Source: Affinundibacterium baiyunense
GTDB taxonomy: Bacteria; Pseudomonadota; Gammaproteobacteria; Burkholderiales; Burkholderiaceae_D
NCBI RefSeq assembly: GCF_018139645.1
Contig: NZ_JAGSPM010000003.1
Span: forward strand, 372,001 to 436,000
DNA: 64,000 nucleotides
Reading direction: 5' to 3'
Position numbers and translations under genes: made by a program. Position 1 is the stretch's first letter; each line of letters opens with the position of its first letter. This document shows positions 11,979-50,930 of the stretch, one piece after another. Below the pieces are notes generated by a model that saw only the letters and a list, made by a program, of their open reading frames with translations, did not search any database and was not told where the DNA came from.

Positions 11979-12060
11979 TTACATGCAGCGAGGGGTAGCT
12001 GAAAGAAATTGAAGTATCGACGGTATCTCATTTTTCTATTAGCCGTTGATGGTTGTTGTT

Positions 12061-12138
12061 TTTGACTTTGTTTTTGACTTTGTTTTTGACTTTGTTTTTG
12101 ACTTTGTTTTTGACTTTGCTTTTGACTTTGCTTTTGAC
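12061..12138. repeat. Tandem 12-bp repeat, about 6.5 copies
   Basis: The unit TTTTTGACTTTG is repeated head to tail with one C/T variant position. The same word on the other strand (GCAAAGTCAAAAA) occurs once at the end of repeat copy 1 (about 11879-11890). The array therefore looks like local expansion of the terminal segment of repeat copy 2. It is intergenic. Confidence 0.85.
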
Positions 12139-19465: not shown

Positions 19466-19491
19466 GATATATCTTGTTTTTCAAAAAAAGT

Positions 19492-20526: not shown

Positions 20527-20738
20527 TTATTTTTCCGATTTCTTGGTGCGCTATATCGCGACAGTATCCATGCTGATAATGCTGATCCCGTAGAAGAAGA
20601 AACTGTAATTAAAACCATCATTTTCCACTCAATAGCAACAATGCAAAAATGAATAAGGAGCAATCCCATTATTGCCAACGCCATATTGATCACCAATAAT
20701 TTCACTAGGTTTAAATCTAAATTAAATTTCATTTGCAT
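20523..20738 (-). CDS. Small two-helix membrane protein, candidate immunity protein
   Basis: The 71-residue protein has two hydrophobic segments (VKLLVINMALAIMGLLLIHF and MMVLITVSSSTGSALSAWIL) and a basic C-terminus (RNRKNK). Translation could start at 20738 or at the ATG two codons later; GGAAA lies upstream. Its stop overlaps the start of the aspartic protease gene. It sits just after the bacteriocin precursor, which is the classic position for an immunity gene. Function inferred only from size, topology and place. Confidence 0.65.
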   Translation of the reverse strand: MQMKFNLDLNLVKLLVINMALAIMGLLLIHFCIVAIEWKMMVLITVSSSTGSALSAWILSRYSAPRNRKNK

Positions 20739-20754
20739 TTTCCAATTAGTTTAT

Positions 20755-20781
20755 AAACACTCTTCCATCGGAAGAGTGTTT
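20755..20781 (-). terminator. Strong hairpin after the bacteriocin precursor gene
   Basis: Perfect 12-base arms (AAACACTCTTCC and GGAAGAGTGTTT) with a three-base loop lie 17 bases after the precursor stop on the minus strand. The stem ends in TTT followed by ATAAAC, so it could terminate part of the transcripts or stabilise the precursor mRNA. Either effect would raise precursor level above the downstream genes. Confidence 0.6.
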
Positions 20782-20797
20782 TGAATAACAATAAGTA

Positions 20798-21163
20798 TTA
20801 TTGCTCTCTTACGGCATTATTTATTGCTGCTCCTACTGCAATTCCTGTGACAGTTCCTGCTAGTGTGCATGGCTTCGTCGCGACTGGGATCAGAAGTCCG
20901 TCTGACACCACTGCTGCTCCAAACATGCATCCACCCGTAACAATTGAGGCAGCAGCAAATCCTCCAAATGCGGCTAAGTAACTAATGGCACTATTTTCCT
21001 CAGGAGTTCTTCGCCGAATAATACTAGGGTATCCCAGCTCCATATCGTATGCAGCCGCTTCCTCAGCACTCATTCTATTTCCAACAATTTCTACTCTCTG
21101 AATATCATCCTCGTCGCTGCCACCCGCTACAAACATCAATTCTTCATTTGAAATCAAACGCAT
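20798..21163 (-). CDS. Class II microcin-type bacteriocin precursor with double-glycine leader
   Basis: The product has 121 residues. The leader MRLISNEELMFVAGG (residues 1-15) matches the colicin V-type consensus (MR-x-L/I...EL..V.GG) recognised by C39 exporters, and cleavage after Gly15 would leave a 106-residue peptide. The mature part starts acidic (SDEDD) and ends in a Gly/Ala-rich hydrophobic region (GGFAAASIVTGG, AGTVTGIAVGAAINNA) with two cysteines that may form a disulfide, as in other class II microcins. A good GGAG ribosome site precedes the ATG. It sits between the HlyD adaptor and the exporter genes. Confidence 0.85.
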   Translation of the reverse strand: MRLISNEELMFVAGGSDEDDIQRVEIVGNRMSAEEAAAYDMELGYPSIIRRRTPEENSAISYLAAFGGFAAASIVTGGCMFGAAVVSDGLLIPVATKPCTLAGTVTGIAVGAAINNAVREQ

Positions 21164-21196
21164 TTTGTGTTACTCCTATACATGGTTCAGTTGAAA

Positions 21197-21291
21197 CCAT
21201 CGATCCTATACCGATGGGTTTTACTGCCTCCGTACAAGGTGTCGAATACCTGTGTACGGTTTTTTGCGGTGAGTGGGCTATGTTCACTCAC
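21197..21291. promoter_or_regulatory. Series of three hairpins between adaptor and bacteriocin genes
   Basis: Three inverted repeats occur in 95 bases: CCATCG/CGATGG (21197-21217), CCGTACA/TGTACGG (21230-21259, followed on the plus strand by six T) and GTGAGTG/CACTCAC (21269-21291). The middle one has the form of a plus-strand terminator, although all nearby genes are on the minus strand. In minus-strand RNA they would form the intercistronic leader of the precursor. Confidence 0.5.
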
Positions 21292-21349
21292 CTGCAAATC
21301 TTTTCAAGTGCGCGCACTTGCTTTTCAAAACATCGTTTCGTTGCTTGAC

Positions 21350-22714
21350 TCATGGCGCAGCCGATCTCGTTACTGCCAACACTGGCTCTATGATCCACTC
21401 CCAAATCTTGCGTCTATCCTGCACCACATCGGCTTCTAAAGTCATGCCTGGCTTGATCGCCTGAACTTGTCCATAAGCATTGATGCTCTGTTGTTTGAGT
21501 TGGACTTTGATGCGGTACAAGGCTTCGTTACTGTTAAAGCCTAAGATGTTTTGTTGTGCATTACTAAGGATGGTACTGGCTAGGTGTTGCGGTAATTCGT
21601 TGGGAGCGAATGGGGTTTTGCTGACATCGATTACCGTACCAGCTTGCAAGCCGAATTTTTGGTATGGATAGGCGTTGTAGCGGATCAAGACTTGTTGCCC
21701 TGCGCTGACAAAACCGGCGGTTTTACTGGGTGCATACAGATGCACTTCTAGCGCTTGTTGATCTTGCTCATTATTCGCATTGCTGGTCTCCACCGTTGGG
21801 ATAATAGTGGCAAGCACTTGTCCGCCATTGATGTTTTGTCCGGTTTGATTGGTAATGGCCGTGACCATACCCGCTTGTGGCGCTGTGATTTGGCTGGAGT
21901 GGCGATTATTATTTTCGGCAATCTCTTGTTGTAAGCCTGCTTTGGCGCGATTGAGCTGTGCTAGTTCAGTCGCTAAGGTATTGGCTAGCGTATTGATTTC
22001 AGATTGGACACTCACCTGTGTGGTCTGCAATTGGATCTTATTACGTTGAAGATTGCTTAGACGGGTAGACAAATCAATGTTCTCTTCTTGCTTTTGTTGG
22101 GTCTGAGCAGCGGACACGTAGCCGCTATTTTGCAGGGTTTGAAATTTATCGATACTTTGCTGGGATAAACTTAAACGACGTTTGGCTAGCATGATTTCTT
22201 GATCAATTTGATCGGATTCGATTTGAAGATTAGCCAATCGCTGCTGTAGAACGATTTTCTTATCGTTTGCAGCGCTTTCACGTAAGCGTTGTTCGCTAAT
22301 CAAGGTGTCTTGACGGGCGCGCAATTGATGCGCGATCAATGCGGTGATTTCGCCTTGGCTGTTTTGTCTTTGGGTCGAGAGCGTGAATAAAACTTGCCCT
22401 GCTTGAACTACATCGCCTTCTTTCACATGGCTTTGCGTCAATATTCCAGCATTCGGCGCAGCGATACTGATATTACCCGCAGTAGGAACGGTGATGCCCG
22501 TAACGCGCGCCTTTTTGGTCATGCTACCGAAGCTAAGAAAGGCGATTAAAGCAATGGCGACTGCTAGCGCAACCCCTGCGATTAACCAAACTGAAATCGG
22601 TTGCGCGAGACGAATCGCGCCCATCCATTGACTACCTAGTGCTACCGTGACTTCTGGGCGGAAAAGTGGGCTGTTAACTGATTTAGCAATTGCTGTGCTG
22701 TTATTCATGTTCAC
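21350..22714 (-). CDS. HlyD/CvaA-type membrane-fusion protein of the bacteriocin exporter
   Basis: This 454-residue adaptor has one N-terminal membrane helix (ISVWLIAGVALAVAIALIAFLSF, about residues 40-62). A lipoyl half-motif follows (GNISIAAPNAGILTQSHVKEGDVVQAGQ), then a long coiled coil rich in Gln and Leu (about 120-270), the second lipoyl half (ITAPQAGMVTAITNQTGQNINGGQ) and a beta-barrel region. It would link the inner-membrane C39 exporter to a TolC-type outer-membrane channel. It is the first gene of the bacteriocin operon, upstream of the precursor. Confidence 0.88.
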   Translation of the reverse strand: MNMNNSTAIAKSVNSPLFRPEVTVALGSQWMGAIRLAQPISVWLIAGVALAVAIALIAFLSFGSMTKKARVTGITVPTAGNISIAAPNAGILTQSHVKEGDVVQAGQVLFTLSTQRQNSQGEITALIAHQLRARQDTLISEQRLRESAANDKKIVLQQRLANLQIESDQIDQEIMLAKRRLSLSQQSIDKFQTLQNSGYVSAAQTQQKQEENIDLSTRLSNLQRNKIQLQTTQVSVQSEINTLANTLATELAQLNRAKAGLQQEIAENNNRHSSQITAPQAGMVTAITNQTGQNINGGQVLATIIPTVETSNANNEQDQQALEVHLYAPSKTAGFVSAGQQVLIRYNAYPYQKFGLQAGTVIDVSKTPFAPNELPQHLASTILSNAQQNILGFNSNEALYRIKVQLKQQSINAYGQVQAIKPGMTLEADVVQDRRKIWEWIIEPVLAVTRSAAP

Positions 22715-36528: not shown

Positions 36529-38028
36529 TCAATCAAAATAAAGTCGTTCTGTATTGAAAAAGACGCGATCTTCTTCGTCTTCATTGGCGATTTCTATGTA
36601 GCCTGTTTCAATCAGTTCTTGCAGGCCAAGTAAGATTTTTTGCTCGGGCAAATATAAGTGCTGTTGAGAAAATTCTTGAATTAAGCATCGTACCGATTTA
36701 CCCAATTCACATAACAGCCATAAATCCTGCAATTCGCTGGCCTTTAAATGGGTAGGATTTGGCGCTAATCTCTGCTCAAAAAAATGTGTGGCATGGATCG
36801 TCGCCTCTTTTGAAATAGCAATGACGGCACGACGACGCGCCCAAAAAGTGGCTAAAGGCCAACGTGTTTCGCGCTGATAGTATTGCCACTGCGTTTGCAA
36901 ATACTGTTTGAAATCCTGATTAATCGCTCCTGCGTAAGTCTTCAGCAATTCACCACTGGAGAACAAACTATCCACCGCAATGAAGGCCCCGTGAATGCCA
37001 CTAGCTAAAGCACGCGGCATTCCAGAGGATGAAATCGGATCATAGGATGCAACCGCGTCGCCAACTGCGACCCAATCCTTGCCACCGGCTTGTTCCAAAT
37101 AGGAAGAAAAACAAGGGAAAGAACGCGGCTTTTCAGCAAATTCCACACCCGCCCTCTTAACTAACGCACCCAAGAACGGCGTTTTCTTCAATAAATCTGA
37201 CCACACGTCTGGATGGCAGATCTGCATTTTGTGGGCGATATCAGGGTCGGTCATCAAACTAATAGAAACCCGCCGATCTGGCATCGGTGAAGAATGCCAC
37301 CAACCATATTCACAAGCCTCGACCTGATTTTCAATCTGCGGTGAGCTATCTGCGGGCAATTGCCCAATGCGAGTAATACCGATCAAACGATCATGAACCT
37401 TCAATGCTAAATTCAAATTGGTTCGCATTACACCGCGCCGCCCAGAAGCATCAATGATGTATTTACAAACGATCATGTGCATTTGTTGGTCTTGTGACTT
37501 CACAATCACACGCCAGCCTCGATCCGACTGCGGTTCGCAAGTAATGACTTGACGATGACATTGCAAACGCCCACCGCGCTTAACGAATGCGCGCATCATC
37601 ATTTGCTCAAAGTTCAAACGATCCAGATTCCAGCCCGTGCCATGTGGTGTAAACATGTAGCCAAGGCGACGTTGAAACTCACTACCCCAAGTGACCTGAC
37701 AAGTAAATGGCGCCAAATTTTGTGCTTGTGCAAAATCTTGCCATAGGTCTAAATATTCTAGCGTCGAACGCACACCAGACGACAAAGACTCACCATATCG
37801 ATGTTCAGTGAAATCATCACGCTCTATCATCATCACATCAATATCACCACGCTTTAACAAAGCAAGCCCAGCCGCACAGCCCGATGGCCCACCGCCAATA
37901 ATCAACACATCGGCGTACTGCGTCTGCATGGATTTTTGCGATTCGTCGATTGAGCTAAAATTGTGTGCTTCCATAAATTCGTTGGTCTTGAAGTTATTAA
38001 CTGCTAGTAAATCGATGCTTGGTAGCAT
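36529..38028 (-). CDS. FAD-dependent oxidoreductase, halogenase/LodB-like
   Basis: The protein has about 499 residues from the ATG at 38028; TTG at 38058 and ATGs at 37974 and 37929 are alternatives. The FAD motif DVLIIGGGPSGCAAGLALL follows a poorly conserved N-terminal extension, which favours a late start. Further motifs are YGESLSSGVRSTLEYL and WVAVGDAVASYDPISSSGMP (FAD C-terminal motif). It belongs to the flavin halogenase/geranylgeranyl-reductase superfamily but lacks the WxWxIP halogenase motif (it has GWWHSSPMP). LodB-type cofactor-maturation enzymes are nearest in form. It is divergent from the FHA regulator and may belong to the adjacent peptide cluster. Confidence 0.72.
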   Translation of the reverse strand: MLPSIDLLAVNNFKTNEFMEAHNFSSIDESQKSMQTQYADVLIIGGGPSGCAAGLALLKRGDIDVMMIERDDFTEHRYGESLSSGVRSTLEYLDLWQDFAQAQNLAPFTCQVTWGSEFQRRLGYMFTPHGTGWNLDRLNFEQMMMRAFVKRGGRLQCHRQVITCEPQSDRGWRVIVKSQDQQMHMIVCKYIIDASGRRGVMRTNLNLALKVHDRLIGITRIGQLPADSSPQIENQVEACEYGWWHSSPMPDRRVSISLMTDPDIAHKMQICHPDVWSDLLKKTPFLGALVKRAGVEFAEKPRSFPCFSSYLEQAGGKDWVAVGDAVASYDPISSSGMPRALASGIHGAFIAVDSLFSSGELLKTYAGAINQDFKQYLQTQWQYYQRETRWPLATFWARRRAVIAISKEATIHATHFFEQRLAPNPTHLKASELQDLWLLCELGKSVRCLIQEFSQQHLYLPEQKILLGLQELIETGYIEIANEDEEDRVFFNTERLYFD

Positions 38029-38264
38029 GTCTTTTGTGACGTAAGTCGACAGTAGCAATTCACATGCCAGCCACTTAAAGCGTAAAAATTTGTCGTTTTT
38101 ACAGGAAAGACATGAAATAAACTTACGATGCCGCTAGAATGCCGCTACATAATTTGTGCGATCAAGGTTAAGATTGAAAAATTCAATTACCAAATTAAAA
38201 ATGAATCACGCTAAATTGACGTGTTTTTTAACTTGTTCCCAACAAAACTAAAGAAAATTAAGGC

Positions 38265-38334: not shown

Positions 38335-39891
38335 ATGTCTAACGCCGACTACACACTAACCTCACCCATTGCATTTGCAGCAGCCAATAGCAAACCGCTA
38401 CTCAGTCTCACGATCGCTTGGCATACGGATAGCGCAAGAATTGGTGAGCAGTTTATTGGCGGCACCGAAGCAGAAGTGATTGAATTGAGTCGTTTCACCC
38501 CAGTATTTCGTCACATTACGGGTGATGCACTACCCATCGGTCACGGTGGCGTGTCACGCGATCCACTAAGAATTGTGCGAGATACCAGCGATGGCATCAC
38601 GATTTGCCCGCCGAATAGTCGTATGGTGGTTGAAGTGAATGGGGAAGAAATTCGTACACCAAGCTATCTCAGTCCAGAACAAGTGGATGCTGGCGTCATC
38701 GTTGGACTAGGACGTGCAATTTATATTTGCTTACATTGGATGCGCTGCCTACCCAAATTAAATCCAGTAAATGGTTTTATCGGTGTTGGCAGCAACGCGA
38801 TTTCAACCAGAGATTTAATTCGATTAGCGGCAACCAATGATAATGCTGTGTTACTGCTTGGCGAAACCGGTACAGGTAAAGAAGTCGCCGCACAAGCGAT
38901 TCATCAGCTCAGCAAGCGTAGCGCCGCGAAAATGGTTTCGGTCAATATGGCCGCCTTAAATGAATCACTGGCTGCAGCAGATCTATTTGGCGCGGCAAAA
39001 GGTGCCTACACTGGCGCTCAAAATACTCGCGATGGCTATTTCAGTGAAGCACAAAATTCCAGCTTATTTTTAGACGAGATTGGCAATACACCTGCCACCG
39101 TACAACCTATGCTTTTACGCGTATTAGAAAATGGCGAATACCGACCACTCGGTGCTACACGCGATGCGCGCTCTACCGCTCGCCTAATCACGGCAACAGA
39201 TCAAGACCTGTATCACACCAATTTCAACCACGCCCTAGTACGCCGATTAGAAAGCTTTATTATTCGAATTCCACCTTTACGTCAGCGACGTGAAGATATT
39301 GGCTTGTTGATCGCTCACCTCTCAAAACGCGAAGACTTCCCCTCAATCAATTTGAGTTTAATACCGCCGAGTTTGATTGGTGAAATGTTGAATTTTGATT
39401 GGCCAGGAAACATTCGCCAATTAAGCAATGTATTAAAACGCGCACTACTCTCATTGCAGTTGGGTGAATATCCGCAGTTAAGCAAGTTCATTGAAGCGCC
39501 TAAAGCAATTCCACCGGCTAGTGCCGAATTGCGTAAGGCCATCAGTGATGCGCCAATACCCGTCGTGAAGACACCAGTTGCCTCAGCGGACAATGCGCAC
39601 ATCGAACGTAAAAAATTACGCGACCTCACCGAGCAAGACGTGATCGACGCCATGCATAGACATGGTTGGACTATCCAATATGCTGCCGATGATTTAGGTA
39701 TCTCTCGCCCGTCGATGTACAAATTAATTGAGGCTAATTCACAGATTCGTCGCGTTGAGCAAATTCCCGCCGAGGAAATTCGCGTGCATCTCGATGCAGT
39801 GAATAATCATGTTGAAGATTGTGCGGCGAGGTTGAAAACACCTAGCGAAGCATTACGTCGACATTTAAAAGGGCTTGGTTGGATTGCTTAA
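38335..39891 (+). CDS. Sigma-54-dependent activator with N-terminal FHA domain
   Basis: The 518-residue protein has an FHA domain at about residues 25-135 (LPIGHGGVSRDPLRI carries the phosphopeptide-binding Ser-Arg region). The AAA+ domain follows: Walker A GETGTGK 176-182, GAYTGA 223-228 (a functional variant of GAFTGA) and Walker B LFLDEIG 244-250. A Fis-type helix-turn-helix lies near 435-470, and a short second helical unit at the end. FHA domains read phosphothreonine, so its activity is probably set by a Ser/Thr kinase. Two kinase-like genes lie in the same region. Transcribed divergently from the FAD gene. Confidence 0.87.
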   Translation: MSNADYTLTSPIAFAAANSKPLLSLTIAWHTDSARIGEQFIGGTEAEVIELSRFTPVFRHITGDALPIGHGGVSRDPLRIVRDTSDGITICPPNSRMVVEVNGEEIRTPSYLSPEQVDAGVIVGLGRAIYICLHWMRCLPKLNPVNGFIGVGSNAISTRDLIRLAATNDNAVLLLGETGTGKEVAAQAIHQLSKRSAAKMVSVNMAALNESLAAADLFGAAKGAYTGAQNTRDGYFSEAQNSSLFLDEIGNTPATVQPMLLRVLENGEYRPLGATRDARSTARLITATDQDLYHTNFNHALVRRLESFIIRIPPLRQRREDIGLLIAHLSKREDFPSINLSLIPPSLIGEMLNFDWPGNIRQLSNVLKRALLSLQLGEYPQLSKFIEAPKAIPPASAELRKAISDAPIPVVKTPVASADNAHIERKKLRDLTEQDVIDAMHRHGWTIQYAADDLGISRPSMYKLIEANSQIRRVEQIPAEEIRVHLDAVNNHVEDCAARLKTPSEALRRHLKGLGWIA

Positions 39892-40624: not shown

Positions 40625-42814
40625 CTATCGCAGATACTTTGGATCACGACGTAAAGCAATTAGCTCTGGTTCAGATTCAATTAACTTAAGCGATATTCCT
40701 AGCTCTTTCGCCTTGGAGATCGCCGCTAAAGCTTGGGTACGCATATCGATCATCTCGAAACTAACCCCAGCGCGCAATTGTACCTCTGCATTCTCTGGAG
40801 CGATTGCTAAGGCTTTTTGTACGTACATTAAAGCATCAGCATTCTCACCCAGTTTCGCTGTATACAAGCCCATGCGTGACAAAAGATCTACATTGTTCGG
40901 ATCATCTTTCAGTCTTGGTTGCAAAAGATTACGCGCTTTACTGTAAGCCGTCTTCGCCACATCCGATTTGCCAGGCAACCAAGACATCGTATCACCCAAC
41001 TTTGCCCAAGCTAAATAATCAGCCGGATTTCCTTTATCTACACTGACCGCATTTTCATAGGCACTCGCCGCACCAACGTAGTCACCACTTGCAAAATAAT
41101 GATTACCAAGTGCTTTAAATAATTCTGCACCAGGCCGATTTTTTAGTCCCGATTGCAGGACTTGCAAACTATCTTCTGCACGATTCTGCATCGTGAAGGT
41201 TTCTGATAATCCTAAGTAAGCAGCACTGCCGTCAGGCTTAATTTGCAAACTTAATCCGTACGCAACTTCTGCAGATTTAAAATCCGCTTTTTGAAAATAA
41301 ATTTGTCCTAACTGATCGGCAAAGGTCCGCTCTGCTGGATAGCGCAACATCGCCGCTTTGACCATCGTCAAAGCCTCATCCAATCGGTGCGCACGTATGA
41401 ACAAATCAGTCTTCACACCTAAGGCTAATGCGCTACTAGGATCTAAGGCAATTGCTCGATCAATCTCAGCTAGGGCAAGGGCAAACTTATCTTGAAGTCC
41501 CATCACCCGCGCGTTTGCAATATGACTCAAGGCAAGGAAGTCATTCGATTTCAAAGCGACTTGCGCATTACTTTCTGCTTTCGCTAACCAATATGGATTT
41601 TCTTCATCGTACAAATAGCGATAGCTATAAATCAAAGATAGGCTTGCCGCTGCAGCTGCATGTTGCGGCGTGTTTTCGAGTATGCGAGAGAAATGCTGCT
41701 CTGCTTTATCGAGCATTTCGAGGCGATCGTAATTCGTAAATGCCTCTAAACCCAATTGCATTTCGCGCGCTTCAGAATACGGTGCGATCGCCGAACGCAT
41801 TTGTGACCAATATGGTTGCGAATACCAAACACCAACTAATACCGCAGAAGTTAATAGCGCGGCAAAAACAAAACGCCATTTCTGTACTAACTGACGCCAA
41901 CTAAACGCAGCTTTTGTTTGTTCAGGCACATTCAATAAAGTGAGATTCAGTGCCGCTAAATTGAATGTGCCTGAATTTAAAGACGGTGCATCAATCGCTG
42001 CAATCTGCGCGCATTGATAGGCAACTTCTTGCATACTACTGATACGCTGTTCGACTTGGCGCGTTGTCATCGCCCGCACCAATAAGCGCAGCACTTGCGG
42101 CAAATGATCTGGCCAAGGCCACTGATCTGAGTTCGATTGAATCAATGCCGCTGCCAATGCTAAACCAGACAAATGTGAAAAAGGTCTAGAGCCTGTTAAT
42201 AGCTCATATAAGATCACACCCAAAGCATAAATATCTGAACTGGGCTTCAAGCTCGCGCCAGTTAGCACTTCGGGCGCCATGTAGGCAATCGTGCCTTGTG
42301 GATCAGATTGCACCAAGGAAGTTGTGACATCGCGATCTGCTTGAATAGCAAGACCAAAATCTAAGATACGCACCACGCCGCTTGGCTCTTGCATCAGATT
42401 TGATGGCTTTAAATCGCCATGGATCAAACCAGCTAGGTGCGCTTCATGCATCGCTTGTGCGACTTGTAAAACAATATCGACCACATGCGAGATACTCGGT
42501 GTCTGTGTTTCCAAGACCTGACGTAAAGTGCGTCCTGGCACCAATTCCATCACAATGGCTTGGCAATCGTCGGTCTGTTCTAACGCGTGAATTTTTACGA
42601 AAGCGGCATGCTGGAGTGAAGCCGCTAAACGCGCCTCCTTCATCAAATCAACACCAGCTGCGATGTTCTTCAAATACTTAATCGCCACTTGCCGATGTAA
42701 CTTGGTATCCCATGCTTGATAGACATGCCCAAACCCACCCTCACCTAGGCTCTTACCTAGTTGATAGTGTAGTAATTGTTCAGGTTGTTTGACATTGTCT
42801 TTACTTGCTGACAT
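40625..42814 (-). CDS. Transmembrane Ser/Thr protein kinase with C-terminal TPR repeats
   Basis: The 729-residue protein has an N-terminal Hanks-type kinase domain (about 17-280) with all key residues: GEGGFG 24-29, Lys46, Glu60, HGDLKPSN 132-139, DFG 152-154 and APE. A single membrane helix follows (about 315-335), then at least seven TPR-like repeats. The kinase faces the cytosol and the TPRs face the periplasm. Its likely partner is the FHA sigma-54 activator. A paralogue with a damaged active site is encoded at 48768. It lies downstream of the lanthipeptide-like enzyme genes on the same strand. Confidence 0.9.
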   Translation of the reverse strand: MSASKDNVKQPEQLLHYQLGKSLGEGGFGHVYQAWDTKLHRQVAIKYLKNIAAGVDLMKEARLAASLQHAAFVKIHALEQTDDCQAIVMELVPGRTLRQVLETQTPSISHVVDIVLQVAQAMHEAHLAGLIHGDLKPSNLMQEPSGVVRILDFGLAIQADRDVTTSLVQSDPQGTIAYMAPEVLTGASLKPSSDIYALGVILYELLTGSRPFSHLSGLALAAALIQSNSDQWPWPDHLPQVLRLLVRAMTTRQVEQRISSMQEVAYQCAQIAAIDAPSLNSGTFNLAALNLTLLNVPEQTKAAFSWRQLVQKWRFVFAALLTSAVLVGVWYSQPYWSQMRSAIAPYSEAREMQLGLEAFTNYDRLEMLDKAEQHFSRILENTPQHAAAAASLSLIYSYRYLYDEENPYWLAKAESNAQVALKSNDFLALSHIANARVMGLQDKFALALAEIDRAIALDPSSALALGVKTDLFIRAHRLDEALTMVKAAMLRYPAERTFADQLGQIYFQKADFKSAEVAYGLSLQIKPDGSAAYLGLSETFTMQNRAEDSLQVLQSGLKNRPGAELFKALGNHYFASGDYVGAASAYENAVSVDKGNPADYLAWAKLGDTMSWLPGKSDVAKTAYSKARNLLQPRLKDDPNNVDLLSRMGLYTAKLGENADALMYVQKALAIAPENAEVQLRAGVSFEMIDMRTQALAAISKAKELGISLKLIESEPELIALRRDPKYLR

Positions 42815-43040
42815 GAGATGCGGTGACTAAATCCAGTTGAAAAGACGGCAATCCGTATTCTAAACTAATTTCACCACAGAAAGACGCAAGCAGACACCGA
42901 GAACAACACCCTAGCGTTCAACTAAGGATGTTTTATTGTCTCGGTTAGAAGCTGGCAATGCTTATGACAGACATTTAACTTATTTGCCAACTTTGCCAAC
43001 TGATAGGAGGCAGATACTGAAATCACCGATTTCACATTTG

Positions 43041-43078
43041 TATCAATCTTATGTATCAATCTTATGTATCAATCTGAA
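43041..43078. repeat. Short tandem 13-bp repeat
   Basis: TATCAATCTTATG is repeated two full times and a third time in part, in the 275-base gap between the LanC-like stop and the kinase start. No other signal was seen in the gap. Confidence 0.75.
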
Positions 43079-43089
43079 TGATAGGCGTT

Positions 43090-44400
43090 TCAATCTGCGC
43101 CAATCAACAAAATTGATCGTACGGATTTCACATCATACATCCGCAAATAAAAATGACCGATCCCTGCAGTTCCTAGCATAAGCCCTGGCGATTCTCCAAC
43201 GCCTGCATTTCCACAAGGCCACGGTAAGCCTTGCTTAATATAGAAATGGTGGCCGTCCTGTGCGACTTTTTCTGCCACCGTCATCAATGTTGGGCGATTT
43301 AATTCTTGCGCTGCCATGATCATTAAATCAGCATTTCCCGCCGCTCCATGGCACAAAGAATAATTCAGTTTACCTGGCAGCCAAGCTTGCATCAGTGCCG
43401 TAGCACTCGATTGCAAAGCGGCTTCAAGATCTTGTTCTATAGCGACAAGATCGCTTGTATCTACATCGCTCATTTGCATCAATAATTGTCGATTTCTAAG
43501 GCGCGACAATCCTATTCCCGGCGCACCATGACACCAAGCCATACTGCAAGTGGATTTTTTTTGATCCGATCCTGCCACATTTCCCGCTTGTGCAAATCGT
43601 CGTAAATCGGCCCAATTAGACTGATCTTGATCAAACCAATGACGCTCGTATTGCCATGCTGCGCGCACGGTATTTAAGTATTCCTTATCCTTGGTCACGC
43701 TATACAATTCCAACAAAGCAGTGGCGATTCCTGCCGTACCATGTGAATGTCCAGTCAAATTGGACTGTACCTCAGTGCCGATAGTAGACCATGAACAACC
43801 ATGCTCACCATGTTCCGCAAGTTGCAATAAATGGCGTCCGTGCAATTGCGCAAACTCAGTCAGTTCTTCACGCTGATATTTTTTAGCAAGATATAGCAAA
43901 GCCGGAATTGCTCCAGCACTGCCAGAAATGACATCAATATTCTTTAGATCAAGAGGAACTTTGCGCAAATCAAGCAATAGCGAAAATCCTCGCTCAATCA
44001 ACGCATCACGTTGCAGTAGTTCGCCAATCCGTATCAGCGCAAATCCGATTCCGGATATCCCGGCATAAAATCCATGCTTAGCATTAGTCGGTATGCGAGC
44101 ATAAATCGAGCATGCTTGATTTACCGCTGCTTCAATCGTGCGCAGTTGTTGTCGATCATGCGTAAATTGGTAAAGCTCTGCAAGAAATAATGCGATACCG
44201 CTAGTGCCTGCATATACATCCGCACCAAAAGCCTTGTACACAGGATTCAACCGCTGCCCGTGCATCTCTTGCGCCCATCCTAACCAATTGCAACGAGCCT
44301 GATCCCACACCGCGTCCCGACACAGCAGATTGCCAAGACGATTCGCGATCTCTAGATACAAAGGATTGTTTGTTGGACTGGATTGAGTAATTTCTACCAT
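43090..44400 (-). CDS. LanC-family lanthionine cyclase (free-standing)
   Basis: The 436-residue protein has repeated alpha-barrel motifs (VYAGTSGIALFLAEL, FYAGISGIGFALIRI, VISGSAGAIPALLYL). The complete zinc and catalytic set is present: GHSHG (His220), AWCHGAPGIG (Cys290) and LCHGAAGNAD (Cys350, His351). LanC enzymes catalyse addition of Cys thiols to dehydrated Ser/Thr to form thioether rings. The start overlaps the stop of the HopA1-like gene by seven bases (translational coupling). It is not fused to a dehydratase. Substrate is probably the repeat peptide encoded at 46776. Confidence 0.88.
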   Translation of the reverse strand: MVEITQSSPTNNPLYLEIANRLGNLLCRDAVWDQARCNWLGWAQEMHGQRLNPVYKAFGADVYAGTSGIALFLAELYQFTHDRQQLRTIEAAVNQACSIYARIPTNAKHGFYAGISGIGFALIRIGELLQRDALIERGFSLLLDLRKVPLDLKNIDVISGSAGAIPALLYLAKKYQREELTEFAQLHGRHLLQLAEHGEHGCSWSTIGTEVQSNLTGHSHGTAGIATALLELYSVTKDKEYLNTVRAAWQYERHWFDQDQSNWADLRRFAQAGNVAGSDQKKSTCSMAWCHGAPGIGLSRLRNRQLLMQMSDVDTSDLVAIEQDLEAALQSSATALMQAWLPGKLNYSLCHGAAGNADLMIMAAQELNRPTLMTVAEKVAQDGHHFYIKQGLPWPCGNAGVGESPGLMLGTAGIGHFYLRMYDVKSVRSILLIGAD

Positions 44401-45539
44401 TGTGTTTCTTTATCAAATAATTGCGCCTCAAAGAAATTTGTAGAACCGGGGTTCAAGTAAGCGAAATCTAAACTTAGTTGATTTGCTACAAACTCATCCT
44501 CGATCGCCTGCATTTTGGTTCTGCAATCTTGCAATCCCAATTGCCAAGCCTTGACGAATCCTTTTGCTAACAAATTACATCGATGCATTCCAAAGCTCAC
44601 TCCAGCTTTCGGATCTTCTGCCATCCCGATACCGGGACTCAGGGTTCGGGTAAATAAGGGATTACCTTCTTTTAAACAAATAGCTCCGTCGCGCTGCATA
44701 TCGATCAATAGCATTGCTACAACCGGATAATAACGTCGAGCGACGTACAAAACCGCTGCGTCTCTACGCGTGTACAACTTTGCCTGTATCAAGGCCTTAA
44801 ATTTAAATGGAATCTGATAACGATTCAGATTAGCGGTGACTTGCGCCATCAAATTAGGCGCTTGTTGGGCACTCACATGAAAATAAAAACGCACAATTGC
44901 ATATTCATCAAACTGATCTGACAAAGTCCGTCCAAACGCAAAGAAAAAACTAGGTTGTACATCCGTACTCCCGGCAAACATACGTACGCTAACAAAATCA
45001 CCAGCGACCGGCGCGACACCCGGCCATTTGTAGGTGCTGTATTCACCCGCCAACACTGCACGGCTACGATCCCCTTTTTGCACAAATAGTCGACCATCAC
45101 TACCCGTTTGATAAATTTGCCAACCGGGGTCCCAGCCATCTTTATTATCATTCGCATTATGAAATGACGCAGTTAAATTTTCGTCGGTTAAATTTTCGTC
45201 GCCTAAATTTTTGTCGATTAGTCGCTCACGAAAATCTTCACGAAATTCGTCGCTCGCAACGTATGCATCACAATCTAAAGATCGCACATAACAACGCTCA
45301 TAAAGTTGTCCCGTCAATTTCTCAATCAAGCATGCAACAGAAAGGGCGGTAACATGATCTGGTGATGCGTCATCAACCGAACTTTCCGAAGGCACCGTTG
45401 TAACAAACCGCGTGCCCGCGATAGTGAAAGTATCTACGGCTTCGATCTGAACGCTTTGACAAATCTTGTCTAACTGCGTGCGCAATGGGTGTGCTGATTT
45501 TGTTACATTGTTTGACTCCGTGTTCTGACTCATCAACAC
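44394..45539 (-). CDS. HopA1-family protein, probable lanthipeptide lyase component (LanY-like)
   Basis: The 381-residue protein matches the type III effector HopA1 family, with a central LYERCYVRSLD segment and a C-terminal half containing FYFHVSAQQAP, PFKFKALIQAKLYTRRDAAVLYV and FGMHRCNLLAKGFVKAW. In class V lanthipeptide and thioviridamide-type pathways a HopA1-like protein works with an APH-like kinase to eliminate phosphate from phosphorylated Ser/Thr. Here the APH-like gene lies just upstream with a seven-base overlap, and LanC overlaps downstream. A stretch near residues 117-128 holds small repeats (NLGDENLTDENL). Function inferred from family and context. Confidence 0.82.
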   Translation of the reverse strand: MLMSQNTESNNVTKSAHPLRTQLDKICQSVQIEAVDTFTIAGTRFVTTVPSESSVDDASPDHVTALSVACLIEKLTGQLYERCYVRSLDCDAYVASDEFREDFRERLIDKNLGDENLTDENLTASFHNANDNKDGWDPGWQIYQTGSDGRLFVQKGDRSRAVLAGEYSTYKWPGVAPVAGDFVSVRMFAGSTDVQPSFFFAFGRTLSDQFDEYAIVRFYFHVSAQQAPNLMAQVTANLNRYQIPFKFKALIQAKLYTRRDAAVLYVARRYYPVVAMLLIDMQRDGAICLKEGNPLFTRTLSPGIGMAEDPKAGVSFGMHRCNLLAKGFVKAWQLGLQDCRTKMQAIEDEFVANQLSLDFAYLNPGSTNFFEAQLFDKETQW

Positions 45540-46627
45540 TCCTCCACAAACCCAAACAGATTCCTTGCCGCTTGTTCCGGTGCATCCAGAATCTCTTGAC
45601 TTAACTCCACCAAAGCTTGTGCGTGCTGACTCACCTGCGCTAAGCCGTACAGAGATTCAAATGCGGTACACAACATTCTGATAGCAGAAAATTCCAAGCA
45701 CCGCAATAAAAGCGATGAACGGTCTTGTACGGCAATTTGCATTTGATCGCAATATGCTTGCCAGAAAGCTTGAATACTTGCGAACATGAATGGCATGTTA
45801 TCGATGGTGTCTTGCAAAAGTTGTTCGCGTTGTTGCGACTGATCTCGATAGTGACGCATGATCCAATGCGACAGATAGGCTTGGAATACCGAACCAACAT
45901 CCCAACGCCTATCACCAAATTCGACAAGTTCCCAATCAATCAATTTCAATTTTGGCTGACCAGCGTCGTGATACAGCAAACAGTTATCCCACTTTAGATC
46001 AGCGTGAATCAAGGTTTCAAAATGCCATGTTTCAAATAATCTATCCAGATGCCCAATGAGAACAGGCTTACTACGAAGAAAATCAGCAAACTGCACAGCA
46101 CCTGCACTCAAGGAGCCTGGTGAAAAATACGATTTTTTGTAGTAGGTGAAGATCCAAGGTACTTTCTTTTGCAAGCCAGGAATGTCTGCATCCAATACAT
46201 TCTCATCAAAAGAAAGGCGATGATAATAACTAAGCGCTTCTGCCAATAAGCAAGCAAGCGAGGTGGGGAAAATACGCTGTTGATAATAGAACTCACGCAA
46301 ATTTTGACTATCGGGTATCAGCTCAAAAATGAGGCTATGTCTAGTTTGATCGTAGTCCAACAAAGATGGTACGGAGGCCGCCCAATCAGGAAATTTTTGC
46401 GCCAATCGATAAACCTGAGCCTCTTTTAATAGCGAACTTTGTGCCAACTTATCGATCGCTTGAATTTGCTTTACAAAAATCCCGCCACGGGTACCACACA
46501 AAACTTTGAAATTGCGATTGTGCTGACCCGCCTCTATCACCCTGAACTGTCCATCGACGACATCGCTGACAGAAACAAAACCTCGAGCGGTTAAATAATG
46601 AGCTAGATTGGCTGCAGTTAAAAACAT
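45533..46627 (-). CDS. APH-like phosphotransferase, probable lanthipeptide Ser/Thr kinase (LanK-like)
   Basis: From the ATG at 46627 the protein has 364 residues; an upstream start at 46711 would add 28 less plausible residues through a terminator hairpin. The aminoglycoside-phosphotransferase fold is clear: Lys63 in IFVKQIQ, the catalytic loop HADLKWDN (218-225) and the metal-binding IDWE (240-243). In class V lanthipeptide and thioamitide systems such proteins phosphorylate precursor Ser/Thr before elimination. It starts the three-gene overlapping set APH-HopA1-LanC, downstream of the precursor gene's terminator. Confidence 0.82.
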   Translation of the reverse strand: MFLTAANLAHYLTARGFVSVSDVVDGQFRVIEAGQHNRNFKVLCGTRGGIFVKQIQAIDKLAQSSLLKEAQVYRLAQKFPDWAASVPSLLDYDQTRHSLIFELIPDSQNLREFYYQQRIFPTSLACLLAEALSYYHRLSFDENVLDADIPGLQKKVPWIFTYYKKSYFSPGSLSAGAVQFADFLRSKPVLIGHLDRLFETWHFETLIHADLKWDNCLLYHDAGQPKLKLIDWELVEFGDRRWDVGSVFQAYLSHWIMRHYRDQSQQREQLLQDTIDNMPFMFASIQAFWQAYCDQMQIAVQDRSSLLLRCLEFSAIRMLCTAFESLYGLAQVSQHAQALVELSQEILDAPEQAARNLFGFVEEC

Positions 46628-46665: not shown

Positions 46666-46706
46666 CGAAAAATAGAAAACCCGAAGCTTTAATCACTTCG
46701 GGTTTT
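46666..46706 (-). terminator. Terminator after the repeat precursor gene
   Basis: CCCGAAG and CTTCGGG arms (46680-46702) are followed on the minus strand by TTTTCTATTTTT. It lies between the precursor and the APH-like gene, so precursor mRNA can accumulate separately from the enzymes. T residues on the other side could also let it work on the plus strand. Confidence 0.82.
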
Positions 46707-46775: not shown

Positions 46776-47282
46776 TTAACAGAGAAATGCTGGAGCTGAT
46801 TGATACGCTTGAGGCTGATACTGTCCCTGCGGAGGTGCGACAAAGTTTTGACGCGAGGACATAAGCTTTGAACCACAAGTTTGAGTGCATGCCGAGGACT
46901 CTGGCCCAGTGTCACAAGTTTGAGTGCATGCCGACGACTCTGGCCCAGTAGCACAAGTTTGAGTACATGCCGACGACTCTGGTCCTGTATCACAGGTTTG
47001 AGTACATGCCGACGACTCTGGTCCTGTATCACAGGTTTGAGTACATGCCGACGACTCTGGCCCAGTGTCACAAGTTTGAGTGCACTCCGAAGACGTTGGT
47101 CCAGTTTCACAAGTTTGAGTGCACTCCGAAGACGTTGGTCCAGTTTCACAAGTTTGAGTGCATTCTGAAGACGTTGGTCCAGTTTCACAAGTTTGAGTGC
47201 ATTCTGAAGACGTTGGTCCAAGATCGTAAATTTGAGAACCTATCATTGCTAACGATGCGCTTTGATTTTCCACTACATTCAT
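46776..47282 (-). CDS. Candidate lanthipeptide precursor with nine tandem core repeats
   Basis: From the ATG at 47282 (AGGA upstream) the product has 168 residues; a GTG at 47306 would add eight. Residues 1-21 (MNVVENQSASLAMIGSQIYDL) form a short leader. Then come nine 13-residue repeats: four of GPTSSECTQTC(E/D)T and five of GPESSACTQTC(D/A)T, the last lacking its final two residues. A 32-residue tail (GSKLMSSRQNF...) ends in Cys. Each repeat has two Cys and five or six Ser/Thr. The neighbouring dehydration and cyclisation enzymes make a multi-core lanthipeptide likely. Other frames through the repeat are open only because the unit is 39 bases. Confidence 0.82.
   Translation of the reverse strand: MNVVENQSASLAMIGSQIYDLGPTSSECTQTCETGPTSSECTQTCETGPTSSECTQTCETGPTSSECTQTCDTGPESSACTQTCDTGPESSACTQTCDTGPESSACTQTCATGPESSACTQTCDTGPESSACTQTCGSKLMSSRQNFVAPPQGQYQPQAYQSAPAFLC
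46875..47219. repeat. In-gene tandem 39-bp repeat, nine units
   Basis: The plus-strand unit begins ACAAGTTTGAGTGCA. Two neighbouring units (encoding the second and third repeats) are identical and others differ at one to several sites. Units fall into two blocks (4 + 5) that match the two peptide variants. This points to recent stepwise duplication. There are no unique spacers, so it is not a CRISPR array. Confidence 0.93.
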
Positions 47283-47395: not shown

Positions 47396-48748
47396 CTATT
47401 TAACACTGTTGTCGATCTCTTCAGAGAACAAATCATAAGGAGTATTTCCACCATAAATTTGTATTGAGCCATAGCCACCAGCAAAATATTCGCTAAAACT
47501 TCCTACGTCTAGAATTGGCTCGGGGACATTCAAACTAATCACGTTTTCAGCGCTCAGAAATTGAAAATCCGCTGGATATTTATTCGGATCACAACCCTGC
47601 GCAGGATTCTTGACTTGTGCCAACTGTGTATGTGCACTGTACTGGGTACCATTTTGCGTCAACGTATAGTTGGTATAGACCGACTGCACCCCAGCAACAT
47701 TATCGGCTTGTGGTGTGACACTGTTATCGAGAGCGCACCAGCCGTCAACATTAAAGACGAATCCATTTTTCCCTACAACCACACATTGCTGCATGATCAC
47801 AGAGCCACTAGAAGGCACTAGTTGAATTTGTAGCTCGGTATTATTTGCGGGCAGATTCTCTCGATTCATGTTTTTTCTGAGCCGAGCATCATCGTGATCG
47901 AGACAAATTTCAATACCGTAGTTGATCGACGATAGAACATTATTCTGTCCAAAATTTTGATTAAAAATCGCGTAACTATCATACACGTGCTTTTTGACAT
48001 CACCATCAGACAAATCAATATGTGGATAAGCCACCATTTCCTCAGTAATCACGTCTTGATTATTAGTTTCAAACAAAACGAAATCAATCGGAGATAGAAA
48101 ATACTTCTCGGTGGTTAATGATTGATGTGTTTGAGATTGACCTGACAATTGCAAACCCAAGTTACTGAACACCAAGGCGCGGTCACGTACTTGAACAGCA
48201 GGATTCGCCCGCAAATCAATGATGGTATCGCTCAAAATTTGCTCGGTAACACTACGTGCATTGCCAAATTCAGCTTCTGCATTTAATGCCAAACTTTCTA
48301 CCAAACGCTTGCGCATTTTTACCGCTGGTGACTGAAATACCGCATCGATATTGGCAACTTTGGCGCTGATCATCGTACCAAAAACGAAAGTCCAATTAGG
48401 ATATTCCTGAGGATTGAAAGTCTTTGCCAACATTTTCAAAGCGAGCTCAGCCGGATCTTCGTCGGTATGTCGATAAACATAAGGTCCCAAAGGTCCATGA
48501 AAATAAAACTCGGGTGCCATGAAAATATTATTCACGAGTTGCGTGTCTTCACCGGCCGGCAATGCCTGCTTAGCGGTATCAACCGCATTTTTTAAGATTG
48601 CAATACGCGCGCTCAAATCTTGCACGATATCTGTCGCACCAAGATAATTGCCCACCAAATATTTCGACAAAATTAATTTATCCTGACTAGGTCCAGTTGG
48701 AATTGCATATCCAATAAAGCGACATTGCGCGTATTTGTTTGTGGTCAT
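47396..48748 (-). CDS. Nitrilase-superfamily protein in the lanthipeptide-like cluster
   Basis: The 450-residue protein carries the nitrilase triad: Glu80 in FMAPEFYFHG, Lys215 in TEKYFLSPIDF and Cys282 in YGIEICLDHDD. It is longer than ordinary nitrilases (about 270-330), with large insertions and a C-terminal extension. Such enzymes hydrolyse nitriles, amides or carbamoyl groups, or make amides. It starts 19 bases after the pseudokinase stop and ends 113 bases before the precursor start, so it is probably co-transcribed with both. A tailoring or signalling role for the peptide is inferred from location only. Confidence 0.8.
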   Translation of the reverse strand: MTTNKYAQCRFIGYAIPTGPSQDKLILSKYLVGNYLGATDIVQDLSARIAILKNAVDTAKQALPAGEDTQLVNNIFMAPEFYFHGPLGPYVYRHTDEDPAELALKMLAKTFNPQEYPNWTFVFGTMISAKVANIDAVFQSPAVKMRKRLVESLALNAEAEFGNARSVTEQILSDTIIDLRANPAVQVRDRALVFSNLGLQLSGQSQTHQSLTTEKYFLSPIDFVLFETNNQDVITEEMVAYPHIDLSDGDVKKHVYDSYAIFNQNFGQNNVLSSINYGIEICLDHDDARLRKNMNRENLPANNTELQIQLVPSSGSVIMQQCVVVGKNGFVFNVDGWCALDNSVTPQADNVAGVQSVYTNYTLTQNGTQYSAHTQLAQVKNPAQGCDPNKYPADFQFLSAENVISLNVPEPILDVGSFSEYFAGGYGSIQIYGGNTPYDLFSEEIDNSVK

Positions 48749-48767: not shown

Positions 48768-50930
48768 TTACATTGTTTTAAGCAGCTCTTTCAAAACAGG
48801 CTCACTACGAATTTTTGCCTCGCTAAAGCCTAGTTGCTTCGCCTTATCGATTTCTGCTAACGCACTATTTCGCAACCCCATTAATTCGTACGCACAAGCT
48901 GCTTGAAAATGTACATCAGGATTATTTGGTGCAAGTGCTAATGCTTTATTCAGCATGGCAAGTGACTCTTTTTCCTCACCAACTCGTGCATGAATTCGTG
49001 CAATTGTGACCATCAGCCATCCGTCACTTGGACGCTGCTCTAGCTTAGCCTCCAGCAATTTCTGTGCCTTCTCGTATGCTCTTCTAGCATCCACCTTTTT
49101 ATCAGGTACCTGAATCAACGCATTAGCGAGGCCAATCCAATTATCATAGTTTTGCGGATTCCCAAGGATTGCTTTTTCCATTGCATCGGCGGCTGCCGCA
49201 TAGTTCCCTTGGTCAAACCTAATTTCACCCAGACGCGCATATAAAATAACATCTGGACGTAGCTGCAAACCTTGCTGCAATACCTGCAAAGCATCATCAA
49301 CACGCCCCTGATATTGCAACACCATAGCTAAAAAATTATAAGAGAGCATCACATCAGGATGCTGTTCAACATTTTTTCTAAATATAGCTTCGGCCATTTG
49401 ATATTTCGCTTGATTCATATAAGCGACTCCCTTCAAATTGGAAATTAACCAATCATTCGGAAATAACTTTAAAGCGGAATCTGCATGTTTTATAGTTGCA
49501 TCGAATTGACGCGCGATCAAATAGGTACGTACCTCAGTTTGCCAAGCCAATAAATTATTCGGCTCTATTTTTTTCGCTTTTTGCACTGCAGCCATGGCCA
49601 TATCAAATTGGCGATGTGGGTCTAACGCCAGTGCATAAGCGATTTGGGTAATAGCTAAATCAGGATTCAAATTAATCGCTTGTTGAGCACTTGCCAAAGC
49701 TCGACCGCGCCACACATCATCTCGATTATTGCTGCGTAGACGATAGCTGTAAACAATCGATAGCCCCGCCGCTGCACGCGCATTATTCGCATCTCGCTCC
49801 AGCACTGTATTAAAGTGTTTGGTCGCTTCATCTAACTTGCCTGGCCTATCGTACATCGTCAATGCTTGCATTCCACGCTCCAACTCTAGCGACTCGGAGT
49901 ATGGCGTCAGCACTTTAACGACTTGCGTCCAATTAGGTTGTATTTTCCAAACCGTCACACCACCCACACACAGCAACGCGGCCACTAGCATGCCATAGCG
50001 CCAACGACGGCGACGATTGGCTGCATCGAGTTGCGCTTGTAGCGCCTGCATCTTTGATTGACTGAAACTACTGGAAGGCGACTCTTGGTCAACCAACTTT
50101 TGGCATTCCTGTTGAACTTGCGCCCATTGCAGTCGATCACTGACTTCGCGCTTAGTCATCGCCAAAATCAATTGATAAACAGCGGGAGAAATCGAGGACG
50201 GCCATGCCCATTGTTCGGAACGTGTTTGCGCTTGTGCCGCTACCAAACTCAAGCCGCGCAAATTAACAAAGGGTGTCGTGCCGTTGAGCATCTGATACAA
50301 AATCGTTCCGACCGCGAACACATCACTCGCGACGCTAGCAGCGTGTTCGGCGAAACGTTCAGGCGCGAGATAAGCGATACTGCCATAGGGATCAATCTCA
50401 GCAATATTGTTTACCGCTTGCGGGTCAAAATAGGTCGCAAAACCTAAATTTAAAATTCGAATTTTTCCGGTTGCGTCAACGATCAGATTAGCTGGTTGCA
50501 AATCGCCATGCACCAAACCAGCCTCCTGCGCTTCTTCTAAAGCAGCGGCAATTTGCTTAATATGAATTAAAGCGAGATTCTCACGACCTTGGTTCTCTGA
50601 TATCCATTGAGATAGTGCTTGCCCCTGCACCATCTCCATGACGATATAAATACTACGATCAACCTCTTCTAAGGCATGAATTTTGACAAAGGCAGAGTGA
50701 GTAAGGGCGGCGACTTTTCTTGCGCGATTTAACATGGCGTCGAACTCGCCGCCAAGATCGCTCAAACGCTTAATTGCAACGACGCGATGTAACTTGGTGT
50801 CCCAAGCTTCAAACACTGGCGAAACGCTATCCTCATCTATTCTTCGACGAATTTCATAATGACGAAAGGATTCCATCGTCATCAAATCTTGCTGATACTT
50901 ACTTTCGCCAATGCTGTGTACTGAATTCAT
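48768..50930 (-). CDS. Transmembrane TPR protein with degenerate Ser/Thr kinase domain (pseudokinase)
   Basis: The 720-residue paralogue of the kinase at 40625 has the same layout: kinase-like domain (about 24-290), one membrane helix (about 313-332, MLVAALLCVGGVTVW) and TPR repeats. Key residues are altered. The glycine loop is RIDEDSVSPVF instead of GEGGFG, HRDLKPxN is HGDLQPAN (141-148), and DFG is NLG (161-163). Lys54 of VAIK is retained. It is probably inactive or very weak, and may act as a sensor or allosteric partner of the active paralogue. It heads the run toward the nitrilase and precursor genes. Confidence 0.88.
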   Translation of the reverse strand: MNSVHSIGESKYQQDLMTMESFRHYEIRRRIDEDSVSPVFEAWDTKLHRVVAIKRLSDLGGEFDAMLNRARKVAALTHSAFVKIHALEEVDRSIYIVMEMVQGQALSQWISENQGRENLALIHIKQIAAALEEAQEAGLVHGDLQPANLIVDATGKIRILNLGFATYFDPQAVNNIAEIDPYGSIAYLAPERFAEHAASVASDVFAVGTILYQMLNGTTPFVNLRGLSLVAAQAQTRSEQWAWPSSISPAVYQLILAMTKREVSDRLQWAQVQQECQKLVDQESPSSSFSQSKMQALQAQLDAANRRRRWRYGMLVAALLCVGGVTVWKIQPNWTQVVKVLTPYSESLELERGMQALTMYDRPGKLDEATKHFNTVLERDANNARAAAGLSIVYSYRLRSNNRDDVWRGRALASAQQAINLNPDLAITQIAYALALDPHRQFDMAMAAVQKAKKIEPNNLLAWQTEVRTYLIARQFDATIKHADSALKLFPNDWLISNLKGVAYMNQAKYQMAEAIFRKNVEQHPDVMLSYNFLAMVLQYQGRVDDALQVLQQGLQLRPDVILYARLGEIRFDQGNYAAAADAMEKAILGNPQNYDNWIGLANALIQVPDKKVDARRAYEKAQKLLEAKLEQRPSDGWLMVTIARIHARVGEEKESLAMLNKALALAPNNPDVHFQAACAYELMGLRNSALAEIDKAKQLGFSEAKIRSEPVLKELLKTM

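Follow-up and report, generated by a model that had tools for sequence, protein, structure and literature searches.

A gene in a 64,000-nucleotide stretch of the Affinundibacterium baiyunense genome (the window) very probably encodes a multi-core lanthipeptide precursor, which would be modified by a synthetase of LanK, LanY and LanC type (class V, Vb-like). Judging from its sequence, the product is probably a bead-chain of sulphur-bridged rings, and relatives carry longer versions of the precursor. The multi-core lanthipeptide reading, first put forward in the initial annotation, is well supported by sequence, synteny and catalytic residues. The features involved are listed in Table 1.

Table 1. 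Features of the precursor locus, in window coordinates.
Feature	Coordinates	Strand	Basis or remark
Flavoprotein resembling LodB/GoxB peptide maturases	36529..38058	-	NCBIfam NF038171, 3.3e-86
Sigma-54 activator travelling with the block	38335..39891	+	Pfam PF00158, 1.2e-46; synteny
Second Ser/Thr protein kinase with TPR repeats, downstream end of operon	40625..42814	-	Pfam, synteny
Stand-alone LanC cyclase	43090..44400	-	Pfam LANC_like, 9.6e-62
LanY-type phosphoSer/Thr lyase (HopA1 family)	44394..45539	-	Pfam HopA1, 1.5e-37
LanK-type kinase (APH fold)	45533..46627	-	Pfam APH, 1e-10
Intrinsic terminator in precursor/kinase gap	46676..46706	-	12-pair stem 46706-46676, then T-rich stretch
Putative multi-core precursor gene	46776..47282	-	168 aa, ATG start, stop included in coordinates
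Leader, units and tail of precursor	within 46776..47282	-	Leader aa 1-21; nine 13-aa units aa 22-138; tail aa 139-168
Nine 13-codon units	46869..47219	-	Predicted (Me)Lan pairs S4-C7 and T8-C11 per unit; pairing inferred
450-aa protein, no family	47396..48748	-	Adjoins precursor in 8/8 loci of operon type
Ser/Thr protein kinase with TPR repeats, first gene of block	48768..50930	-	Pfam, synteny

The precursor had been described as a 21-residue leader, nine units of 13 residues and a 32-residue tail ending in Cys. The open reading frame, its translation and a tandem array (Tandem Repeats Finder: 39-bp period, 8.9 copies, 92% matches) agree on the nine units, and the leader appears in the translation at the length given; the tail does end in Cys, but it is 30 residues long, counted after nine full units. 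Four units of the GPTSSECTQTC type come first, followed by five of the GPESSACTQTC type. The protein contains 19 Cys in its 168 residues and no Trp.

Other frames are also open across the array, so the openness of this frame is no evidence for it. The coding frame is supported by the differences between units, since the synonymous ones exceed the non-synonymous ones (pS 0.371 vs pN 0.093). The same is seen in U. macrobrachii (0.176 vs 0.057) and U. amnicola (0.577 vs 0.090), and in the +1 frame of the window array the relation is inverted (0.095 vs 0.194). The gene has repeated cores in one open reading frame under purifying selection, as a multi-core RiPP should, and a leader with a Ser/Thr/Cys core adjoining synthetase genes, as a lanthipeptide precursor should.

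A terminator belonging to the gene itself had also been claimed, and the stem and T-rich stretch given in Table 1 bear this out together with the folding of the surrounding 121 bases (z = -4.43; 0/200 shuffles equally stable). The terminator pattern scan is weak when taken alone, with one match vs a mean of 0.7 in shuffles. Given this terminator between the precursor and the enzyme genes, the precursor transcript should exceed the enzyme transcript.

Units of the GP type were counted with a pattern that fixes only G1, P2, C7 and C11; U. flavidum was counted by whole protein only. There are nine such units in the window, eight in U. amnicola, seven in U. macrobrachii and four in the database protein P0001. 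In the eight distinct units all 16 Cys have Ser or Thr at position -3, which was reached in 0 of 10000 shuffles; the shuffles keep the composition of the unit and ignore relatedness, and with eight units from four close relatives the figure should not be read as a strict probability. In columns 4 and 8 the only variation is between Ser and Thr, and column 9 is always Q. In columns 3, 5, 6 and 10, E, V, A, G or I occur as well, and position 13 is likewise not kept as Ser/Thr.

Because every one of these Cys has Ser/Thr at -3, and because only Ser and Thr are exchanged at both positions, two adjacent four-residue thioether rings per unit are predicted, up to 18 per chain. The initial annotation had arrived at the same maximum of 18, which we keep as a prediction; the five or six dehydratable residues that it assigned to each unit are unlikely all to be donors, as only positions 4 and 8 are always Ser/Thr.

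It is rather unlikely that only dehydration takes place, or that LanC closes just a subset of the rings, which would leave a product rich in dehydroamino acids. Ser or Thr is frequent at positions 5 and 10 as well, and CaoK/CaoY dehydrate eight residues of CaoA (available text of PMC9486802), both of which would suit such a product. However, positions 3, 5, 6, 10 and 13 are not kept as Ser/Thr among the units, and every Cys of the GP-type units has a fixed partner position.

Over the whole protein, Ser/Thr is found at -3 for 18 of the 19 Cys in the window precursor, and for 14/15 and 16/17 in two near homologues. Diverged homologues keep to this spacing in part or not at all: the corresponding values are 9/12 (U. 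flavidum), 5/11 (U. seohonense), 5/7 and 4/6 (two others), and in the precursor of the MAG nzgw559 they are 0/12, with Thr at -1 in 12/12. Throughout the precursor group the cores are followed by an FVAP- or YVAP-like motif. The tail is conserved as well as the leader, which is unusual for a lanthipeptide precursor.

Downstream of the precursor, and on the same strand, lie the genes of the kinase, HopA1 and LanC, which abut or overlap by a few bases. All three had been named as neighbours from the sequence, and all three were identified by Pfam.

In NCBIfam the kinase comes closest to LxmK, a class V subunit (3.1e-25); with 89 bits against a cut-off of 315, it is at best a distant member of this equivalog. 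K54, H209, D211, N216 and D232 (alignment numbering), which we take to be the catalytic residues, are invariant in 11 of 11 aligned sequences. The start is probably ATG 46627 rather than TTG 46711, because M-F-(L/F)-T is common to all 11 and a TTG start would cross the terminator. Searched against PDB, the kinase profile matches chain A (Kinase) of 9dk1 at 2.9e-4, outranked by two 4-hydroxytryptamine kinases (8.1e-5 and 8.2e-5).

The HopA1 open reading frame was listed with a GTG start; ATG 45533 is likelier. R215, K246, R256 and Y263 are invariant in 12 of 12 aligned homologues, and they match R187, K219, R229 and Y236 of CaoY by spacing (31/10/7 here vs 32/10/7). The first three of these CaoY residues have been mutated, and Y236 was named by alignment (available text of PMC9486802). 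The sole PDB match of the HopA1 profile is chain B (Lyase) of 9dk1, at 8.3e-9 and across the active-site region. That the kinase and HopA1 match chains A and B of the same PDB entry supports the kinase/lyase pair. A 15-bp tandem repeat lies within the HopA1 gene (45172-45220), and the length of this segment varies among homologues.

LanC matches TIGR03897 at 6.9e-82 over positions 540-931 of 932, with 275.6 bits (cut-off 304). All 12 aligned sequences have C290, C350 and H351, which by comparison with NisC presumably bind the zinc. The protein is closest to the C-terminal domains of LanM, and LicM2 is the nearest in PDB.

In terms of class V we find an APH-type LanK (Pfam APH, the five residues in 11/11, LxmK below cut-off), and a HopA1-type lyase with equivalents of R187/K219/R229/Y236 of CaoY, matched by spacing at these four residues. 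LanC is present together with LanK and LanY, as in subgroup Vb, judged by which genes are present. Neither a LanX-type second APH protein nor an AviMeCys decarboxylase, which would point to subgroup Va, is found among the window proteins scanned, a subset of the open reading frames of the 64 kb.

The block extends beyond the three enzymes. The 450-residue protein co-occurs with it and has no match in Pfam and NCBIfam searches. The idea that this protein is a nitrilase, which came from an E80/K215/C282 motif seen by eye, is unsupported: 0/8 members match CN_hydrolase, and the hhalign probability is 0.2% vs four CN_hydrolases of the same genome.

The two Ser/Thr protein kinases match APH weakly, through the kinase fold (Pfam). 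A third gene of this kind with TPR repeats lies between LanC and the last kinase in six of the eight loci with both ends visible (L014, L015, L016, L025, L034 and L086), and is missing in the window (42814-43090) and in L017. In L018 and L019, which are cut by contig ends, the gene adjoining LanC matches the last kinase. When the locus was scanned with PADLOC for a defence system, the two kinases gave generic kinase matches and the other four proteins scanned gave nothing; we do not regard it as one.

The sigma-54 activator is likely a regulator of the block. With a degenerate promoter pattern (up to three mismatches; 53 matches in the window vs a shuffle mean of 36) no match to a sigma-54 promoter lies just upstream of the precursor; the same pattern matches at 38054-38070, near the start of the flavoprotein. 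The flavoprotein, which also travels with the block, scores 289.6 bits against NF038171 (cut-off 400), and adjoins the sigma-54 activator in L015, L017, L025, L034 and L086.

Elsewhere in the window, about 25 kb away, there is a double-glycine export locus (17324-22714) with a C39-peptidase ABC transporter, an aspartyl-protease-like protein and an HlyD protein. It encodes its own 121-residue peptide with a GG leader; the lanthipeptide precursor has no GG leader. A 12-bp tandem repeat of 6.9 copies (98% matches) is found at 12056-12138.

HopA1 was found in 12 of the 60 genomes searched: 12 of the 36 from the genus of the window and none of the 24 others. Among the 52 genomes of good quality, 11 carry HopA1 and the same 11 carry LanC. 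In even samples, the genome of the window included, HopA1 is found in 1/369 genomes of the class, 2/399 of the order and 4/398 of the phylum. Named carriers include U. macrobrachii, U. amnicola, U. flavidum, U. seohonense, U. pigrum, U. nitidum and U. umbellatum, and a Magnetococcales MAG is also among them.

In the window and in seven further loci of the same genus (L014-L017, L019, L025 and L034) the block has the same position, upstream of a UPF0176-family gene that all of them share, and each of these loci has a repeat precursor of its own directly before the kinase gene. Pieces of the block are found in two incomplete genomes (L055 and L086 of G008, L056 of G029). Twelve HopA1-less genomes were searched for this flanking gene and 11 examined, G014 being dropped for its fragmentary flanking match. 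In all 11 the block queries are unmatched in the approximately 19 kb beside the flanking gene, on the side that holds the block elsewhere, which indicates that the block comes and goes as a unit.

HopA1 by itself is no marker of the block. In one genome (G540, L072) two adjacent HopA1 genes lie close to the end of a contig, and 12 kb of sequence there holds no match to APH or LanC; another (G978) has a single weak HopA1, and no block query finds a match in 19.5 kb. In the MAG nzgw559 (G009) there is a second kinase-lyase-LanC set (L018), on a low-coverage contig and with LanC split in two reading frames.

The precursor search matched six of the 60 genomes. In one (G009, contig 76) the lone match lies in a frame with stops and was discounted. 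The other five carry HopA1 and LanC; a second weak match in G024 also has stops, and over the array G000 and G002 give antisense matches interrupted by stops. This search missed the precursors in the syntenic loci of G009 and G017, which were found by position and by blastp (8e-6), respectively. The long precursor of a second group matched 4/60 genomes, all with the enzymes. When proteins were searched with nine aligned precursors, two new close homologues came up besides P0001, which was found again.

Homologues that keep the repeat after loss of the modification genes, named beforehand as evidence that would count against the lanthipeptide reading, were looked for; among the genomes searched, intact-frame precursors are confined to those with HopA1 and LanC. 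The same confinement makes it highly improbable that the precursor is a Cys-rich repeat protein working unmodified, in metal binding or disulphide cross-linking, while the lanthipeptide enzymes act on another substrate. Its 19 Cys in 168 residues would be in keeping with such a protein. However, metal binding leaves the exchange of only Ser and Thr at positions 4 and 8 unexplained, and wherever both genes can be seen in a locus, the precursor gene immediately precedes that of the kinase.

Precursors of 381-459 residues and 33-47 Cys accompany homologues of these three enzymes in six further loci. In four of them (L020-L023, from U. pigrum, U. umbellatum and two other genomes) the enzyme homologues follow a precursor of 381-432 residues with 33-39 Cys. 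Before it lies a protein of about 150 residues that ends in one 23-residue core (GPTGV.NCTQ....CGNTAW.GC). This core sits behind a leader-like domain of about 100 residues, and the long precursor contains further cores of this type. The locus of the Magnetococcales MAG (L035) has a 196-residue protein with a leader-like domain and without that exact core, and its long precursor has 459 residues, 33 of them masked, and 47 Cys. In a genome of the same phylum and another class (G631) the three enzymes come after a 449-residue open reading frame with 34 Cys, 16 of which have Ser/Thr at -3. Beside LanC in L021 (11800-13305, minus strand) there is a GDL-peptide-type radical SAM maturase (TIGR03913, 664 bits, cut-off 591.75).

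A database search with one long precursor gave 22 proteins, the record of the query included, of 307-498 residues and 27-53 Cys. One is from Methylogaea oryzae, and the names visible are hypothetical or uncharacterized protein. In the protein P0023 the leader-like domain and many cores are joined in a single chain. Among the distinct Cys contexts of the 22 proteins, 274/440 have Ser/Thr at -5. At most one Lys or Arg is found in 16 of 21 second-group long precursors (P0002-P0022), and the U. pigrum long precursor has 0 K/R and 2 D/E in 381 residues.

From the gene, the units, the operon, the co-occurrence and the conserved residues described above we infer how such a chain might be made. The kinase and the lyase would bind the short leader, and perhaps also the conserved FVAP-like tail motif. 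The kinase would phosphorylate Ser/Thr at unit positions 4 and 8, from which the lyase would eliminate the phosphate. The zinc LanC would then add Cys7 and Cys11 to positions 4 and 8, so that each unit would gain two adjacent four-residue (methyl)lanthionine rings and the whole precursor chain up to 18. The Ser/Thr protein kinases and the sigma-54 activator would probably control expression.

The regular units with their constant GP start in the window genome, U. macrobrachii and U. amnicola would suit a protease that cuts at the unit borders, probably near T-GP, and releases nine 13-residue peptides of two rings each. We regard this as possible but somewhat doubtful. A varying number of units fits expectation if dose matters, and other RiPPs, such as microviridin (PMC5934393, in the part available), process several cores per chain. 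However, no protease or transporter gene is seen in the conserved block, and the units of U. flavidum and of the second group are irregular, without a single common border.

Tentatively, the whole poly-lanthionine protein and not a small peptide may be the product, with a structural or surface role unlike that of a classical lantibiotic, in a family of up to about 500 residues and 53 Cys. It is conceivable that the rings of such proteins are set by a spacing grammar, S/T-x-x-C here and T-x4-C in the second group. The family might, with similar reserve, be taken to span Undibacterium, Magnetococcales, Methylogaea (placed by the precursor alone) and another lineage of the phylum.

The combination of APH, HopA1 and LanC is a recognised set, class V subgroup Vb, in the available part of a review (PMC12328550). 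As in Vb, where SmoA occurs with LanK, LanY and the LanC protein SmoC, the kinase, the HopA1-type lyase and LanC come from separate genes. Vb is without AviMeCys in that part of the review (PMC12328550), and no decarboxylase is found among the window proteins scanned either. Unlike Vb as reviewed there, with SmoC compared by description, the system in the window comes from a Pseudomonadota host, its core is repeated nine times, its leader is very short and its tail is conserved. The same text reports class V from actinobacteria only (PMC12328550). Homologues outside actinobacteria are noted in the accessible sections of PMC9486802 and PMC7794033, and cyanobacterial class V-type precursors already in those of PMC9486802.

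The Va lanthipeptides cacaoidin, lexapeptide and pristinin resemble the window in their LanK and LanY homologues and the corresponding lyase residues, as far as the sources at hand describe them. Their clusters encode a decarboxylase and, as CaoX or LxmX, a second protein resembling APH, where the window has LanC and one APH (PMC9486802, available text). The sprPT/sprH3 pairs of the decRiPPter study in Proteobacteria share the APH/HopA1 pair, and distant proteobacterial homologues are noted there; no precursor, LanC or repeats are described for them in the accessible text (PMC7794033). Multi-core microviridins (AMdnA) likewise have several cores in one polypeptide, but there an ATP-grasp ligase forms macrolactones on three cores and the enzymes are unrelated (PMC5934393, in part). 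The lyase, kinase and zinc LanC activities are also those of class IV LanL, which is one multifunctional protein with an OspF-like lyase, in contrast to the three separate proteins of HopA1, APH and LanC type in the window (PMC9486802, in part).

In the literature searched, which covers few subscription journals, no repeat-built class V precursor was found among the matches listed, and no papers on an Undibacterium lanthipeptide, a multicore class V lanthipeptide or a proteobacterial HopA1-LanC lanthipeptide. Nor does a repeat precursor with these enzymes appear in the available text of the kintamdin paper (PMC9415263), the precursor-mining paper (PMC7268733) or the nostolysamide preprint (PMC13060382). 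The initial annotation had held that no lanthipeptide with this core was described. Of this, the repeat-built substrate was indeed not found described in the texts available, but the enzyme set is already known as Vb. The enzymology is not new; the new part is the repeat-built substrate, as far as that literature and its partly available texts reach.

If this reading is true, class V-type lanthipeptide synthesis is not restricted to short single-core peptides. The CaoY study took as precursors only open reading frames below 110 residues (PMC9486802, in the part available), and precursor size limits in genome mining could miss such genes. A synthetase of three proteins would introduce as many as 18 rings into one chain in this genome, and possibly dozens in relatives. 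The system would then be a natural case for studying how a single set of enzymes deals with many sites, with respect to order, processivity and leader dependence. Further, the choice of ring size would be testable, because two groups with homologous enzymes have different spacings from Ser/Thr to Cys.
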